64,000 nt of DNA, taken from Fulvivirga sp. M361. GTDB taxonomy: Bacteria > Bacteroidota > Bacteroidia > Cytophagales > Cyclobacteriaceae. A program made the translations under genes and the position numbers. Below are positions 20,807 through 27,547 of the stretch, piece after piece; the first letter of the stretch is position 1; each line of letters begins with the position of its first letter. Under the pieces are notes generated by a model. It was not told where the DNA came from. It saw only the letters and a list, made by a program, of their open reading frames with translations, and did no database searches. The stretch lies in NCBI RefSeq assembly GCF_007097395.1, contig NZ_VKDC01000015.1, forward strand, positions 62,001 to 126,000, given 5' to 3'.

Positions 20807-21463
20807 TTACAGATGTAACCCACATTCCACTTTTTTGGTATTGGCCCACCTTCCTTGCCGTCCATGACCTTTAACTGTACAATGAGTACATCCAATGGAG
20901 TCATATCCTTTTTCTATCAACGGATGTGAGGGGAGTTCGTTGATGTAGGAATACAATTCTACTTCATCCCGCGTCATATCTAGCATAGGGTGGAATTTTA
21001 CGATGCCCGCTTTTCTTTCGAAGACCTGCATTTTACTGCGGTTGGCGTTTTGATATTTTAGCAAACCGGATATCCAGATACTGTGCTTTTCCTTGAGTTC
21101 ATTTACAGGCTGTACCTTATTGATGAAGCAGCATAAGTCAGTGTTAAGCTTCCAGGTGCTGTTCTCATTGGTAAAACGTGCATGGTTGGTTTTAGCTTTT
21201 ACGTCTTCTACATTCAGGTGAAATAACTTAACGAGCTGGTTTTTGTAATCGATGGTTTCCTGGAAATGATATTGCGTGTCTACGAAATAAACCGGATGAT
21301 CCGGCTTTACTTTACTGAGCATATGAAGCAGTACTGCTGAAGAAGCTCCAAAAGATGAAGTGATCAGGATTTCTCGTTCCGGAAAACTATCAAAGAGTAG
21401 TTGAAGACGTTCTTCAGGACGCAGGCCACTATACCTTTTGTTCAATGATTCTGTAAATGTCAT
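20807..21463 (-). CDS. cysH: Phosphoadenylyl/adenylyl-sulfate reductase, iron-sulfur type
   Basis: Reduces activated sulfate to sulfite in assimilation. The 218-residue protein has the ATP-pyrophosphatase-like loop TSSFGASSAV, the cysteine pair C111-C112, C192 and C195 (IGCTHCT), and the catalytic ECGLHL with C214. The CC plus CxxC ligands indicate a 4Fe-4S cluster, the form typical of enzymes using APS rather than PAPS. It is the last gene of the sulfur operon and overlaps the preceding gene by four bases. ATP sulfurylase genes are not in the window. Confidence 0.92.
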   Translation of the reverse strand: MTFTESLNKRYSGLRPEERLQLLFDSFPEREILITSSFGASSAVLLHMLSKVKPDHPVYFVDTQYHFQETIDYKNQLVKLFHLNVEDVKAKTNHARFTNENSTWKLNTDLCCFINKVQPVNELKEKHSIWISGLLKYQNANRSKMQVFERKAGIVKFHPMLDMTRDEVELYSYINELPSHPLIEKGYDSIGCTHCTVKGHGRQGRWANTKKVECGLHL

Positions 21464-22065
21464 TTTTCCTCGTTTTTCGATACCAGCGATCGGGTTATTT
21501 TATTGAGTTCTTTTACCTTGTAACCAAAGTCTCCTTTAAGAGAATCCCGTACCTGTTTTAAGTTTTTCAATAGCTCTTGTGTGTCTTCGGGCAATACATC
21601 TTCCAGTACTTCTCTAAATCTTTTGGCAAAGGTGGGAGACTGACCATTGGTAGAAATACCAATTTTCAGATTACCCTTTTTCACTGTAGAGCCTAGATAG
21701 AAATCACATAAGTCCGGTGTATCTGCCACATTTACCAGAATATTCTGCTGCTTGGCCACTGCTCTGATAGATGCATTTGTTTCCCTACTATCCGTAGCTA
21801 ATATGGTGACATTCACACCTTCCAGGTCTTCCGGAGTAAAAGCTTTTTTGATGATCTCGAAAGCAGGCCTGTTTTCAGCCAGGGCCCATAGTTCATCTTT
21901 TATTTCCGGTGCTACCAGTTTAATTATAGCGCCTGGATCATTTTTAAGTAAGGCCTCTACTTTTTCTAAACCTACATTACCTCCTCCCACCACCAGCGTG
22001 GTGAGTTGATCAAGCTTCAGGAATACCGGGAATAAATTATTACTATTTGGCATAATCTCGTTCAA
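21460..22065 (-). CDS. Precorrin-2 dehydrogenase / sirohydrochlorin ferrochelatase domain (CysG N-type)
   Basis: A 201-residue Met8/CysG N-terminal-type protein that oxidises precorrin-2 and inserts iron to finish siroheme, the cofactor of the sulfite reductase two genes upstream. It has the NAD-binding motif VVGGGNVGLEKVEALL, the family strand VNVADTPDLCDFYLGS and the catalytic region GISTNGQSPTFAKRFRE. The start could be the internal ATG four codons later. It overlaps cobA by up to 23 bases and cysH by four, showing tight coupling. Confidence 0.9.
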   Translation of the reverse strand: MNEIMPNSNNLFPVFLKLDQLTTLVVGGGNVGLEKVEALLKNDPGAIIKLVAPEIKDELWALAENRPAFEIIKKAFTPEDLEGVNVTILATDSRETNASIRAVAKQQNILVNVADTPDLCDFYLGSTVKKGNLKIGISTNGQSPTFAKRFREVLEDVLPEDTQELLKNLKQVRDSLKGDFGYKVKELNKITRSLVSKNEEK

Positions 22066-22804
22066 CCGTTTTTACTAATTCATAGAAATGTTCATGGGTG
22101 CCTACCGCCTCACCGATCACGATCAATGCCGGAGTGGGAGGGTTGTGCTGTCGTTTCAAAGCGGTTAGTTCACTTACCCGGCCAAAGATCACTTTTCCAT
22201 CTTCCAGGGACCCCTTTGAGATAATGGCAGCAGGGATATCTGTTTTTCCCTGGCCAATGTAGGCTTTTACAATGGCATTTAGCTTACCTAATCCCATGAG
22301 AAAAATACCTGTAGCTGTTGACTGGGCTACTAACTTTACATCGTTGGAGATCTCACCGGAACTTGTAGTAGCGGTTACCACCCAGAAACTTTCGTTAACG
22401 CCACGGCGAGTGATCGGCACACCGTAATATCCGGGAAGTGTAATACTTGATATGCCGGGGACAAATGCAACGGGTATATTGAATGTTTCAGCGTATTCCG
22501 CTTCTTCTTTCCCACGAGCAAAAACAAATGGATCACCACCTTTCAGCCTTACTACATGTCCTTCGCTAAGGGCGAAATCAACAATGAGTTGATTGATCTC
22601 TTCCTGCTTATAACTATGTTGACCGGCCCGTTTTCCAACGTATACTTTACGGGCTTTGGCGGGAGCATAATTGAGAAGGTCCGGATGCACCAGTGCGTCG
22701 TAAAGAACGACATCGGCGGAAGCCAGTGCTTTTACTCCCTTGATACTGACCAGGTCAGGATCACCGGGACCTGCACCTACTAAGGTTACTCTTGCATTCA
22801 TCAT
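22043..22804 (-). CDS. cobA: Uroporphyrinogen-III C-methyltransferase
   Basis: SAM-dependent enzyme that dimethylates uroporphyrinogen III to precorrin-2, the first step to siroheme. The 253-residue protein has the family signatures VTLVGAGPGDPDLVSIKG, VRLKGGDPFVFARGKEEAEY and VPGISS. It is a stand-alone CobA, separate from the CysG N-domain that follows. Its first ATG directly abuts the sulfite reductase stop codon; a second ATG follows immediately. Confidence 0.95.
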   Translation of the reverse strand: MMNARVTLVGAGPGDPDLVSIKGVKALASADVVLYDALVHPDLLNYAPAKARKVYVGKRAGQHSYKQEEINQLIVDFALSEGHVVRLKGGDPFVFARGKEEAEYAETFNIPVAFVPGISSITLPGYYGVPITRRGVNESFWVVTATTSSGEISNDVKLVAQSTATGIFLMGLGKLNAIVKAYIGQGKTDIPAAIISKGSLEDGKVIFGRVSELTALKRQHNPPTPALIVIGEAVGTHEHFYELVKTVERDYAK

Positions 22805-24964
22805 TTACGCTTTATAATAATTATCAACTACTACTTTATCTTGTCCTTCGTCCGTTGTATTTAATTGCAACTGACGGAACTTCTTAACCTTGTAAAGGAA
22901 AGTACTGGCTGTTTCATGGTAGGTGTTCGCAAACTCTCCACCAGGCTCGTTTTTATTAATGGACAATACTGTTTCTTCAAAAGTATCTTTCCAGTCAAAC
23001 TTTCCACTTTGAACAAAGTATTGCTCAAAGTCACGGATAATACCGATATGTGTATTACAATGTTGGTCTTCGCTTAGAAGTAGCGCTTTGGCACTGACAA
23101 TAAGTGTGTTATAACTATTGTAGATGGCACTGGCCCATTCTTCTGTTTTTAATGCTTCCGCTGCCAAGTCCAGTTTCTCCTGTGCATCGTTGATGATAGT
23201 GCCTACCACGTCCAATGTTACACCGGCACATTCTCCGACGCCTATTTCAGGAATAAATTGTTCCGAATGTCCCCAGTCTACATAATCTTCAGGGGCAAGG
23301 GCCTTTATATCGGCAAACCTTTTAAGCAGGGAGTAGAAGTACATCTTGCCCTGGCGCTGATAATAGTCATTAAAGTATTCGGCTTCTTCAGCATTGTTTT
23401 CGTAATCTTTGAGAATAGATCTCAGCGCTTCAGGGATCTTTTTGCTAGGTAGTTTGATCACTTTGTCAGCTATAAAGCCTTTGCCATCAGCATCTACTCC
23501 TCCACCTATTACCACTTGCTGGGCGGGTATCACTAATTCACCATTCTTAATCGAGCTGCCATGAAATCCAATATTGGCCACCATATGCTGACCACATGAA
23601 TTCATACAACCGCTTATTTTAATAGCAATGTCATTTTCCAACACCAGTTCTTTGAATTCTTCTCGGATCATTTTTTCCAGTATTAAACTGATATCGGTAC
23701 TATTGGTAACTCCCAGATTACAGGTGTCGGTGCCCGGGCAGGCAGTAATGTCAGCAATGGTTTCAGCACCTGCCTGGGCCAGGTTCAGCTCATTAAGCCC
23801 TTGGTAAATGGCTGGTAATAACGCTGCCCTAACATATTTGATAATAATACCCTGCTGGATGGTGATACGCATGTCATCGGCGGCATATTTTTTTACCAGA
23901 TCGGCTAGTTTTCTTGCCCTTTCTGCATCTATATTTCCGAGATCCACTTTTGCCTTGACGGCATAGAAACCGGACTGCTTTTGTTCAAATACATTGGTTT
24001 TGAACCAGTAATCATATGCGTCAGGATCGGAAATTTTTATGTTCGGGATAGTTACATCATCAGAGGGGAGTACTTCTTTTACTGAAGTCCGGTCGATCGG
24101 GTAGGTTTTGAAAGGAAGCGCTGTACGTTCCTGATCGACCAGCTCAAGAAACTTTTCTATACCCAATCCTTTCTTTTCTTCTATAAGGAATTTAAGCCGT
24201 GCTTTGAAACGTTTTTCTCGCTCACCATAGCGATCAAATACCCTCAACCCTGCTTCTATGAAGGGAATGATCTCATCTTCATGCAAAAATTCATAGGCTG
24301 TTGGGGCGAGTAACGCCTGAGCGCCAAGGCCACCTCCTACCAATACTTTAAAACCTCTTATCTTCTGTCCGTTTTCTTCTTTTACTCTGGGTATAAATCC
24401 AAAATCATGGAGGAAGGCAAAGGCAGAGTCTCTTTCACTGGAAGAGAAAGCCATTTTAATCTTTCTTCCCATCTCCTGGTTCACAGGGTAACGTAGAAAA
24501 TATTCGAACACCGCCTGTGCGTATGGAGCTACATCAAAAGGTTCTTCCGGATCTATGCCGGCCTTGGCTGAAGCAGTAATGTTCCTTACTGTATTTCCAC
24601 ATGCCTCTCTGGTGGTTATGCCTACTTCTTCGAGCTTACTCCACAATTCAGGTGTATCGTCAAGTTTGATGTAATGAAGCTGGACATTTTGACGGGTGGT
24701 AAGATGTAAATTACCATTGGTGTATTGTTCCGAGAGGTCAGCCAGGCGTACTAACTGCTCGGCCGTGATCTTTCCAAAAGGTAATTTAATACGGAACATT
24801 TGCACGCCCTGCTGCCGTTGTCCGTATACTCCTCGTGCCAGCCGAAAAGCTTTGAAGCGCTCTTCCTGAATCTCACCCTGCTTGAAATTTTTGATCTTAC
24901 TTTGTAGTTCAAGAATGTCTTTTCGGGCTTCTTTACTTACTTTTTCACTTATGGTAATGCTCAT
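22805..24964 (-). CDS. Siroheme sulfite/nitrite reductase with C-terminal HEPN-like domain
   Basis: A 719-residue hemoprotein predicted to reduce sulfite to sulfide, most likely from ferredoxin given the operon. Two nitrite/sulfite reductase half-domains are seen; the siroheme/4Fe-4S ligands lie in TACPGTDTC and SGCMNSCGQH. The N-terminus contains the ferrodoxin-like half-domain (QLVRLADLSEQYTNGNLHLT). The last 150 residues form a helical extension (AEALKTEEWASAIYNSYNT) resembling HEPN domains, unusual compared with standard SiR but recurring in Bacteroidota. Nitrite as substrate cannot be ruled out, but neighbours cobA, CysG N-domain and cysH favour sulfite. Its expression is preceded by a terminator and Cys-rich leader. 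Confidence 0.9.
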   Translation of the reverse strand: MSITISEKVSKEARKDILELQSKIKNFKQGEIQEERFKAFRLARGVYGQRQQGVQMFRIKLPFGKITAEQLVRLADLSEQYTNGNLHLTTRQNVQLHYIKLDDTPELWSKLEEVGITTREACGNTVRNITASAKAGIDPEEPFDVAPYAQAVFEYFLRYPVNQEMGRKIKMAFSSSERDSAFAFLHDFGFIPRVKEENGQKIRGFKVLVGGGLGAQALLAPTAYEFLHEDEIIPFIEAGLRVFDRYGEREKRFKARLKFLIEEKKGLGIEKFLELVDQERTALPFKTYPIDRTSVKEVLPSDDVTIPNIKISDPDAYDYWFKTNVFEQKQSGFYAVKAKVDLGNIDAERARKLADLVKKYAADDMRITIQQGIIIKYVRAALLPAIYQGLNELNLAQAGAETIADITACPGTDTCNLGVTNSTDISLILEKMIREEFKELVLENDIAIKISGCMNSCGQHMVANIGFHGSSIKNGELVIPAQQVVIGGGVDADGKGFIADKVIKLPSKKIPEALRSILKDYENNAEEAEYFNDYYQRQGKMYFYSLLKRFADIKALAPEDYVDWGHSEQFIPEIGVGECAGVTLDVVGTIINDAQEKLDLAAEALKTEEWASAIYNSYNTLIVSAKALLLSEDQHCNTHIGIIRDFEQYFVQSGKFDWKDTFEETVLSINKNEPGGEFANTYHETASTFLYKVKKFRQLQLNTTDEGQDKVVVDNYYKA

Positions 24965-25012: not shown

Positions 25013-25047
25013 AAAAAAAGCCTCTGAAGATTGTTATCCGCAGAGGC
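25013..25047 (-). terminator. Intrinsic terminator/attenuator before the sulfite reductase gene
   Basis: On the minus strand GCCTCTG (25047-25041) and CAGAGGC (25026-25020) form a perfect seven-base-pair stem, followed by seven T (25019-25013). It lies inside the operon, 25 bases past the Cys-rich leader ORF and 48 bases before the sulfite reductase start, so it is placed as an attenuator rather than a simple end of metZ. Confidence 0.85.
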
Positions 25048-25089
25048 CTTTGACGTAAATGGTACATTCATCTCAGGTAATGCGGACAA
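25034..25089 (-). promoter_or_regulatory. Candidate antiterminator pairing of the intra-operon attenuator
   Basis: TTGTCCGCA (25089-25081, the last codons of the leader ORF) can pair with TGCGGATAA (25042-25034, the loop side and edge of the terminator stem): eight Watson-Crick pairs and one G-U. The second arm overlaps the terminator stem at 25041-25042. A ribosome finishing the leader would cover the first arm and let the terminator form; one stalled on the Cys codons would leave it free. Mechanism is inferred; pairing is seen. Confidence 0.6.
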
Positions 25090-25159
25090 AATAATCCTCC
25101 GGACAACAACAAATGCAGTCGCAACAGATGATCGTCATATTGTGCTTCCTGATCTTCAT
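25073..25159 (-). CDS. Cys-rich leader peptide (attenuation) upstream of the sulfite reductase gene
   Basis: A 28-codon ORF in the metZ to sulfite reductase spacer. Its ATG overlaps the metZ stop codon as ATGA, the usual sign of translational coupling. Residues 12-19 read CCDCICCC, six cysteines in eight codons, then a short tail ending VRIT. Five of the six codons are TGT. A terminator follows 25 bases after the stop. The composition, position and terminator together fit a cysteine-sensing leader whose product has no function of its own. A small metal-binding peptide is the alternative. Confidence 0.75.
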   Translation of the reverse strand: MKIRKHNMTIICCDCICCCPEDYFVRIT

Positions 25160-26394
25160 TTCTTTATGCTATTAACGGGTTCTTGCTGTACAGTTTCTAC
25201 TTTAATGTTGCCGTCAGTTTTAGACGCATTTAATGCATTTACAATATCTTCTAATATGTCATTTACATTTTCCAGTCCAACGGAAATTCGTATCAGACCA
25301 GGGGTTATTCCTACATTTTGACGTTCTTCTTCCGTAAGTTTTGAATGAGTGGTAGAAGCCGGATGGGTAGCGATTGTCCTGGTATCACCCAGGTTTGCTG
25401 TGAGCGTTAACATCTTTAAGTTGTTCAGAAATTTCACACCTCTTTCCAACCCTCCGTTTACTTCAAAAGTAATCAGCCCGCCACCATGCCGCATTTGTTT
25501 TTGGGCCAGGGTGTAATTTGGATAGGATTTAAGAAACGGATATTTTACACTTGCCAGTTCCTCATGTCCTTCCAGGTATTCGGCAATCTTTAAAGCATTC
25601 TCACAGTGTTTCTCCATCCTTACCGGCAGTGTTTCCAGGCTCTTGGAAAGTATCCATGCATTAAATGGAGACATAGATGGGCCAGAGTGCCGGACGAAAA
25701 AACGTATTTTTTCGATCAGGTCTCGACGCCCTACAATAGCACCCCCGATCGTTCGCCCCTGACCATCTATAAACTTGGTGGCAGAATGACAGATCAAATG
25801 GGCGCCGTATTTGGCAGGTTGCTGTAAATATGGTGTGGCAAAGCAGTTATCTACATTAAGAATCAAACCGTGTTTTTCAGCCATTTGCCCTAACCATTCC
25901 AGGTCGATCAGGTCCAACCCCGGGTTTGATGGGGTCTCTACGAAGATCATTTTTGTATTGGGCCGGATCAGTGATTCCCAGGTTTCAGGACTGTTAATAT
26001 CTGCATAGGTATGCGAGATACCCCATTTTGGGAATATCTGCGTAAGTATCTGGTGTGTAGAACCGAACAGAGAGCGAGATGCCAGCACATGATCACCATT
26101 TTCCAGCAAAGCGGCCATACTACTGAACATTGCAGCCATGCCGGAAGCAGTGGAAACCCCATCTTCAGTGCCTTCTAACAGTGCCAGCTTTTCTATGAAT
26201 TCGTTGCTGTTAGGGTTAGAATACCGTGTGTAGATATTGCCTTCCACTTCTTCTGCAAACAGAGCCCTGGCATGCTCTGCATCATCAAAGGTGAAACTGG
26301 AAGTCATGTAAATAGGAGTCGCGTGTTCGCGTTGCAGTTGGTTGTCCGACTGGGTACGAATGGCTTGGGTTTCAAAGTGTTTTTTCTCGCTCAT
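25156..26394 (-). CDS. metZ: O-succinylhomoserine sulfhydrylase / cystathionine gamma-synthase family
   Basis: PLP enzyme that adds sulfide to an activated homoserine to give homocysteine, using the sulfide made downstream. The 412-residue protein has the Cys/Met metabolism PLP motif HSATKFIDGQGR with the PLP lysine K207, ETPSNPG, and NPNSNEFIEKL near the N-terminus. MetZ is preferred over MetB because of the direct-sulfhydrylation operon context. An in-frame TTG at 26415 is less likely than the ATG at 26392-26394. The gene starts five bases after the ferredoxin stop, and its own stop overlaps the leader ORF start. Confidence 0.88.
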   Translation of the reverse strand: MSEKKHFETQAIRTQSDNQLQREHATPIYMTSSFTFDDAEHARALFAEEVEGNIYTRYSNPNSNEFIEKLALLEGTEDGVSTASGMAAMFSSMAALLENGDHVLASRSLFGSTHQILTQIFPKWGISHTYADINSPETWESLIRPNTKMIFVETPSNPGLDLIDLEWLGQMAEKHGLILNVDNCFATPYLQQPAKYGAHLICHSATKFIDGQGRTIGGAIVGRRDLIEKIRFFVRHSGPSMSPFNAWILSKSLETLPVRMEKHCENALKIAEYLEGHEELASVKYPFLKSYPNYTLAQKQMRHGGGLITFEVNGGLERGVKFLNNLKMLTLTANLGDTRTIATHPASTTHSKLTEEERQNVGITPGLIRISVGLENVNDILEDIVNALNASKTDGNIKVETVQQEPVNSIKK

Positions 26395-26399
26395 AAGAT

Positions 26400-26835
<436 letters not shown>

Positions 26836-26846
26836 AATGAAAGAAA

Positions 26847-26972
26847 TTAACAACAACAGCAACAACAGCAGACTAATGCTGAAGGGCAATAAGTGCTGAT
26901 ATTATTGTTTTTTAAACGGTACAAGCTGTGGTGCTTGAAGTGCTGTTTAGAGATGTTTGTAAAATGATTCAT
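26847..26972 (-). CDS. Poly-Cys leader peptide (attenuation) of the sulfur operon
   Basis: A 41-codon ORF between the SAM riboswitch and the ferredoxin gene. Residues 1-34 are unremarkable and polar (NHFTNISKQHFKHHS). Residues 35-41 are seven consecutive cysteines just before the TAA stop, after an earlier C29. The codons mix TGT and TGC, so it is not a plain triplet expansion. The start lies nine bases past the P1 helix of the riboswitch. This is the usual layout of an amino-acid-sensing leader; no function for the peptide itself is needed. Confidence 0.75.
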   Translation of the reverse strand: MNHFTNISKQHFKHHSLYRLKNNNISTYCPSALVCCCCCCC

Positions 26973-26980
26973 AGCATTCT

Positions 26981-27100
26981 AATTTATATGTTCCTCCGAT
27001 TTCCATCGGAATGGACCAGGAATTAGCACCTTTTCGTAATAAAACTTGACAGGTTGCTAGCGCATCTTAGAGCCTGATCTCTCCGCGCTTCTTTATAAAT
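26981..27100 (-). promoter_or_regulatory. SAM-I riboswitch (S-box)
   Basis: On the minus strand the element reads in order: ATTTATA (P1 5' arm, 27100-27094), AAAGAAGCGCGGAGAGATC, the GCAACC signature (27057-27052), GGTGCTAATTCC (27030-27019, the S-box signature), a CCGAT/ATCGG P4 hairpin (26996-27009) and TATAAAT closing P1 (seven perfect pairs with the 5' arm). All parts and order match the SAM-I class. It controls the sulfur operon starting at 26744. No own terminator was seen; the next element is the Cys-rich leader. Confidence 0.88.
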
Positions 27101-27547
27101 CAAATGCTCGAAAATTTTTTTAACAGCAATTGATACTACAATAGTTGAAATAATTTACGGATTATGCAACTATTGGGTTTGAAAAAAATGACGGAAAACG
27201 TTTTCGGTCGACTTTACGACATTATTTTATTTAAATGAGAGTGGTTTTTCAAGCAGTTTAATGAAGGATCAGTCTAGGTGAAGTACACTACAGTCGGATC
27301 GTTCGGCACTATGAGAAGTAACATAGAATAACATTTTTGAACTCACTGAGTGATTTTCATTCATCAGTTACGTGTATCTTGAATACCGCTGCAAGAGGCT
27401 CCTCAAGTATTGAAGAATCTACTTAGATGTATTTATCTTAAACAAGACACTGTAACACAGTGTTTTTGACTAGTATTGAGGGTTAAATAGTTGACTTATT
27501 TTGTGTTGAATATTCTTTTCACATCTCGATCGAGGTTTTTTATCAGC
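27101..27547. other. Divergent intergenic region
   Basis: About 450 bases between the SAM riboswitch (minus) and the gene at 27548 (plus), presumably carrying both promoters. It is AT-rich, without a convincing ORF. A terminator-like hairpin on the plus strand (27447-27468) is listed separately. Confidence 0.5.
27447..27468 (+). terminator. Hairpin plus T-run with no upstream gene
   Basis: ACACTG (27447-27452) pairs with CAGTGT (27458-27463) around a five-base loop, followed by four more T. It resembles a short intrinsic terminator on the plus strand, though no plus-strand gene precedes it. Strength is uncertain. Confidence 0.35.

Follow-up and report, generated by a model that had tools for sequence, protein, structure and literature searches.

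A 28-codon Cys-rich leader ORF lying between metZ and a sulfite/nitrite reductase gene is best explained as part of an intra-operon transcription attenuator that is ribosome-mediated and responds to cysteine, a reading to which we assign, from sequence evidence, a probability of roughly 0.87. The operon is on the minus strand of the window, by which we mean the whole 64-kb stretch of DNA that was analysed. In the proposed mechanism, ribosomes ending metZ would begin the leader at an overlapping ATGA. With scarce Cys-tRNA the ribosome would stall at codons 12–19, leaving the leader tail, UUGUCCGCA, free to pair with UGCGGAUAA once the latter is transcribed; the terminator would thereby be blocked, and RNA polymerase would continue into the genes for sulfite reductase, siroheme synthesis and PAPS reductase. 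With ample Cys-tRNA, a ribosome at the stop codon would mask the tail, the terminator would form and transcription would stop after metZ. From this arrangement we infer that metZ would be kept expressed when the attenuator terminates.

The second leader, its terminator and its operon

Read along the minus strand, the operon is headed by a SAM riboswitch (26981..27101; Rfam RF00162, 64.9 bits) and a first poly-Cys leader ORF with seven Cys before its stop (26847..26972). There follow genes for a YfhL-type 4Fe-4S ferredoxin (26400..26744) and a metZ-like O-succinylhomoserine sulfhydrylase (25156..26394), the second Cys-rich leader (25073..25159) and an intrinsic terminator (25013..25051). Beyond the terminator lie the reductase gene (22805..24964), predicted to be the first gene controlled, and those for uroporphyrinogen-III C-methyltransferase (cobA/cysG-C; 22043..22804), a siroheme synthase N-terminal domain protein (cysG-N; 21460..22065) and phosphoadenylyl-sulfate reductase (cysH; 20807..21463). 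The protein-coding genes were identified with family models; the start of metZ was assumed to be the ATG at 26394, the listed ORF beginning at a TTG at 26415. Matches of the reductase to the NirA/CysI models score under the curated cut-offs, and it is therefore by its neighbour genes that we call it a sulfite reductase.

The initial annotation had described, past metZ, a 28-codon ORF with an ATGA overlapping the metZ stop and with six Cys in eight codons; each of these particulars is borne out. The ORF at 25159–25073 on the minus strand encodes MKIRKHNMTIICCDCICCCPEDYFVRIT; its ATG overlaps the TGA of metZ, and the six Cys occupy codons 12–19 (25103..25126, minus strand), the predicted stall site. 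On both strands of the 64-kb window, at least five Cys in eight codons occur in just two ORFs, each belonging to this operon. The seven-pair terminator with seven T that had been reported ahead of the reductase gene was recovered as GCCUCUG (25047–25041) pairing with CAGAGGC (25026–25020), followed by the T tract at 25019–25013, all on the minus strand. A simple terminator scan missed it because the scan has a loop limit of 8 and the actual loop of the 7-bp stem is 14 nt. Folding lengthens the stem inward via GGAU/AUCU pairs.

The putative antiterminator, located from the sequence and from pairing tests, has as its 5′ arm UUGUCCGCA, within the final codons of the leader (25081..25089, minus strand), and as its 3′ arm UGCGGAUAA, which lies within the 5′ arm and loop of the terminator (25034..25042, minus strand). 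As originally proposed, the two form eight Watson–Crick pairs and one G-U. Their claimed two-base overlap with the terminator is true for the 7-bp stem, and it becomes longer than two bases because folding adds GGAU/AUCU. Numbered within the leader ORF, the Cys codons occupy nt 34–57, the antiterminator arm nt 71–79 and the stop codon nt 85–87. The footprint of a ribosome extends about 13 nt beyond the start of its A-site. With such a footprint, the antiterminator arm of the window's leader is exposed when the ribosome is at the Cys codons and covered when it has reached the stop codon.

A promoter between metZ and the leader was sought with TAnnTTTG, the Bacteroidota −7 consensus; the pattern, an insensitive test, was found in 1 of the 35 distinct loci with metZ directly upstream.

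Conservation, covariation and folding among relatives

Relatives were sampled in two sets. The first comprises 30 reductase loci including the window, which are the best matches from 295 family genomes searched (210 matched), and 80 contigs, the best of 151 confirmed; both samples, being best matches, are biased to close relatives. These 110 loci gave 108 with at least 150 nt upstream (L088 and L104, with less, were left out) and 87 distinct regions. A leader was counted when a short ORF no more than 450 nt upstream of the reductase had at least four Cys in eight codons. This was so in 69 of the 87 regions, one of the 69 (L007) being a chance ORF that overlaps a ferredoxin gene. The same search returned 0/87 on the reverse strand and 13/1740 in dinucleotide shuffles. 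Cys is conspicuous among amino acids, with 69/87 against 0.2 expected from shuffles. The leader peptides are mostly unalike. Judged by eye, in most relatives the number, position and neighbours of the Cys vary and only the clustering is kept: L017 has eight consecutive Cys, L021 seven, and in other relatives the clusters, of five or six, are interrupted. How many Cys codons a leader has thus seems to change readily.

Leu clusters are also in excess (66/87 against 23.8 expected from shuffles), an excess due at least in part to the TGY repeats of the Cys cluster being read in another frame. We therefore considered a Leu leader, with the TGY repeats read as YTG. The composition of the cluster alone would not have settled the matter, Cys outnumbering Leu in 35 of the 69 loci, equalling it in 32 and falling below it in 2. 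The frame is decided by start codons and spacing: the Cys frame has an in-frame ATG in 65/69 loci and the Leu frame in 15, and the distance from stop codon to terminator is narrow in the Cys frame alone (median 30 nt, interquartile range 26.5–32.5; Leu frame, median 41, interquartile range 6.5–61.5). The Leu leader was ruled out on these grounds.

A terminator was called downstream of 63 of the 69 leaders, compared with 12/345 mononucleotide-shuffled spacers, and the search gave none for the other six; the script also accepts weak hairpins, such as those of L053 (−4.7), L058 (−6.8, inside metZ) and L108 (−8.5). Where metZ lies directly upstream of the reductase (35 distinct loci, including the window), leader and terminator occur together in 28. 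In this set of 35 the leader starts between −10 and +60 nt of the metZ stop in 24 loci, seven of them with the four-base overlap seen in the window. Four loci with a metZ–reductase gap of at most 57 nt (L009, L011, L031, L058) have neither leader nor terminator, and L060 and L069 have a three-Cys cluster with a strong terminator. The initial annotation held that relatives keeping the terminator without any Cys codons before it would refute attenuation. Such a case is approached by L052 (metZ-upstream set; weak terminator, no Cys cluster) and, in the phylum set, by L238 and L245, whose terminators are preceded by two scattered Cys and one Cys, respectively.

Might the poly-Cys ORF act by translational attenuation, with the hairpin merely shaping the start region of the reductase gene? 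Cysteine genes of M. smegmatis are described, in the text available, as under translation attenuation (PMC13236596), and of 15 relatives tested just 1 has a terminator after the operon's first leader. This reading accounts poorly for a hairpin with a T tract after 63/69 second leaders, with little variation in its distance from the leader stop. In the window, moreover, the start codon of the reductase gene (ATG at 24964) lies outside the hairpin, 48 nt beyond the end of the T tract (25013). We consider translational attenuation at the second leader very improbable and transcription attenuation the far better reading.

The second set is more distant: the same family supplied 60 regions and a search of the phylum 29 loci. 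Of these 89 regions two were too short and nine were repeats, leaving 78, and removal of L177 and L188, which repeat L053 and L069, leaves 76. Nineteen have at least four Cys in eight codons, and in 19/19 of these a terminator lies between leader and gene. A further 14 regions have three Cys and a called terminator (L177 being spurious here and L188 a repeat). In the family labelled f6, three-Cys clusters and terminator calls below −10 kcal/mol are both absent from all 16 loci. Going by these sequences, the predicted attenuator is common in the window's closer relatives, in Saprospiraceae, in Phaeodactylibacter and in some Chitinophagales, and patchy or absent elsewhere in the sample.

A different leader, also before the reductase and with a terminator, was seen in the second set. 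It has a conserved peptide core, RCACWFWCC or RRACWFWCC-like (L205, L206, L209, L210, L212, L214, L215, L216, L218, L219, L220, L224, L225), and the combination of Cys and Trp may possibly mark an arrest peptide. That the second-leader peptide itself is functional, as a small metal- or redox-binding Cys-rich protein or a nascent-chain sensor, is hardly credible: eleven consecutive Cys in L071, this conserved stretch in one group of relatives and the existence of copper-sensing Cys uORFs in other bacteria speak for it, but in most relatives only the clustering is kept, and the controlled genes serve cysteine synthesis.

Covariation of the antiterminator had been suggested as a check of the attenuator, and it was assessed by swapping species, not by column-by-column pair counts. 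A 14-sequence MAFFT alignment was not used for pair counts because the antiterminator 5′ arm, whose distance to the stop codon varies, is unaligned in it. Each leader tail was paired with its own terminator 5′ arm and loop and with those of every other locus (63 loci). Native pairings average −14.9 kcal/mol against −10.4 for swapped ones, and the native mean was reached in 0/20,000 permutations; for 44 non-redundant loci the values are −15.3 and −10.7, with 0/50,000 species-swapping permutations. The antiterminator covaries by this measure. Arms that change in concert can be seen in the window (UUGUCCGCA/UGCGGAUAA), L005 (UACGUCCG/CGGAUGUA), L010 (UAUCCGG/CCGGAUA) and L008 (UCAGCAGG/CCUGCUGA). 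At single loci, pairing is better than with the locus's own shuffled tail at p≤0.05 in 36/63, and the locus's own tail ranks in the best tenth against the tails of other loci in 32/63.

Equilibrium folding tells little about the switch in most loci. With the whole terminator present, a clear change between ribosome states (>0.2) was found in 5/63 loci, the reverse change in 2/63 (L099, L106) and little change in 56/63, the terminator dominating most states and loci. Its probability in the window is 0.19 with the ribosome at the last Cys codon, 0.80 at the median Cys, 0.96 at the stop codon and 0.85 with no ribosome. Because the equilibrium fold shows so few switches, the attenuation model needs co-transcriptional kinetics, with the antiterminator forming before the terminator 3′ arm exists. 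The equilibrium folds would also suit a fixed partial terminator that sets the metZ:reductase ratio, with the ORF merely coupling translation. Such an arrangement leaves the Cys codons, the covarying antiterminator and the joint loss of the elements unexplained, and we rate it lower still than translational attenuation.

Folds of the RNA before the terminator 3′ arm is made are consistent with the kinetic version of transcription attenuation. At that point the terminator 5′ arm or loop is paired upstream in 59/61 loci when the ribosome sits at the median Cys, in 51 at the last Cys and in 11 at the stop codon. The count alone is weak, as a probability of at least 0.5 in the stalled state is also reached by about 49.7/63 shuffled controls. 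Fold energy discriminates better in this test: the stalled state gives −18.9 against −12.0 for shuffles, and 35/63 loci beat all 20 of their shuffles.

Classical attenuation geometry, as first claimed for this spacer, thus finds support in the conserved Cys clusters, the terminators, the covarying antiterminator, the constrained spacing and the joint loss of leader and terminator. The layout, its conservation, the covarying pairs, the geometry and the co-loss are read directly from the DNA of the window and its relatives, and from them we infer that the leader is translated, that ribosomes stall at its Cys codons and that the outcome responds to cysteine.

The first leader, the SAM riboswitch and tandem leaders

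An Rfam SAM riboswitch was found in 12/13 and 9/13 of the reductase loci searched, 26 loci picked mainly for having metZ upstream. Near it, a poly-Cys ORF (at least five Cys in eight codons) is present in 16/21, in 15 of them ahead of ferredoxin or metZ and in L064 far upstream. The Cys run is at or near the end of this first leader ORF in the window and in 15 loci between L032 and L089. No intrinsic terminator was seen downstream of the first leader in the window, and a terminator was called in 1 of 15 loci, a weak one (L037). The 75 nt downstream contain 24% C against 17% G (13 loci). The first leader probably works differently from the second, and it may depend on Rho or act on translation.

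Both in the window (26981–26972) and at L115 (1613–1605, minus strand), 7–8 nt separate the end of the SAM aptamer match from the ATG that opens a poly-Cys leader. The riboswitch may control translation of the poly-Cys leader itself rather than a gene. At L115, in the window's own genome, a SAM riboswitch and a poly-Cys leader stand before a gene that we call O-acetylhomoserine sulfhydrylase-like on its sequence and not by a family search. Five consecutive TGY codons occur at three places in this genome, in frame in the first leader and L115 and out of frame in L116. Four consecutive TGY give 35 matches, 30 of them with loci, among which are several further short in-frame four-Cys ORFs.

A phylum-wide search for six TGY codons matched 88/148 genomes. 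Among 30 such loci examined, 20 have no Cys-frame ORF, 2 lie in long ORFs and 8 have a short Cys ORF. A downstream ORF like any of six window genes was found at just one of the 30, L154, which is the window's first leader, and a wider regulon is accordingly not claimed.

Relatives without a metZ match upstream often have two successive poly-Cys leaders: 19 loci by script, or 18 without the spurious L035 (the leader match of L007/L035 overlaps a ferredoxin gene and was counted both in the 69 leaders and in the 19 tandem loci). In 14 of these the upstream leader has its own terminator, so that each leader is followed by one (L057, L059, L066, L070, L071, L074, L082, L085, L094, L099, L100, L101, L106, L107).

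Taken more broadly, many Bacteroidota may stack a SAM riboswitch and ribosome sensors, namely a terminator-less poly-Cys leader and an intra-operon, terminator-type Cys attenuator that would meter the costly sulfate-reduction half alone. The first leader would then represent another type of mechanism, perhaps dependent on Rho or translational, and Saprospiraceae-like relatives would have two complete successive Cys attenuators. We put the chances of this wider picture at about even. If it holds, two successive complete Cys attenuators would sharpen the response to cysteine and, being tandem attenuators for the same amino acid, would constitute, if functional, a natural experiment on attenuation gain.

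Comparison with known attenuators

In the literature covered (top-ranked results, main texts and few subscription papers) no cysteine attenuator was described in Bacteroidota or inside an operon, and tandem cysteine modules were not found. Hints from the phylum exist: the portion seen of a Flavobacterium psychrophilum transcriptome study gives clues for leader-peptide attenuation before amino-acid operons, cysteine being unnamed in that passage (PMC9723704), and short ORFs reminiscent of leader peptides are noted, in the excerpt available, for Bacteroides thetaiotaomicron (PMC7366714).

Elsewhere, cysteine attenuators are already known. The uORFC-8-2 motif, a cysS leader in Rhodobacterales, is proposed to act by ribosome-mediated attenuation (PMC8632094). 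As far as the text available describes it, it resembles the window's leader in having a uORF with tandem Cys codons and a U run that would fit an intrinsic terminator. It differs in belonging to another phylum, in preceding cysS and in having two conserved Cys codons, and the same text describes no intra-operon position; the gene downstream in the window is the sulfite/nitrite reductase. Mycobacterial polycysteine uORFs are described, in the parts of the sources available, as leaderless and acting by translation attenuation (PMC13236596, PMC9094748; citing Canestrari et al. 2020). For the cys operons of Actinobacteria, the corresponding part of a 2005 paper reports Cys leader peptides with no conserved hairpin able to be a terminator (PMC1262725). 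Going by these excerpts, both share with the window a poly-Cys short ORF before cysteine genes and a reported or proposed response to cysteine. A leaderless ORF sits at the 5′ end of its transcript, whereas the window's second leader starts in the metZ stop codon.

For the arrangement of ORFs there is precedent in the Salmonella mgtCBR leader, whose tandem ORFs sense ATP and proline, and in mgtQ, a short ORF between mgtC and mgtB that acts on translation (PMC3641672, PMC8092293). As portrayed in the available portions of these papers, the former is a tandem leader-ORF attenuator and the latter a regulatory short ORF between operon genes; unlike in the window, ATP and proline are what is sensed, and mgtQ is translational.

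If correct, our reading would give part of Bacteroidota a conserved, directly testable mechanism of cysteine control, and would show one transcript being read by a SAM riboswitch and by cysteine-sensing leaders, so that the cut would fall at one point for the methionine branch and at another for the cysteine branch. Close mechanistic relatives are the classical trp and his attenuators, in which a leader peptide with cognate codons governs mutually exclusive antiterminator and terminator. The window has a cluster of cognate codons, an intrinsic terminator, a covarying and mutually exclusive antiterminator, and an antiterminator arm predicted to be free when the ribosome is stalled and covered when it is at the stop codon. 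The trp and his attenuators differ in standing at the 5′ end of their operons and in sensing other amino acids; what is unusual here is the place of a cysteine attenuator inside an operon.
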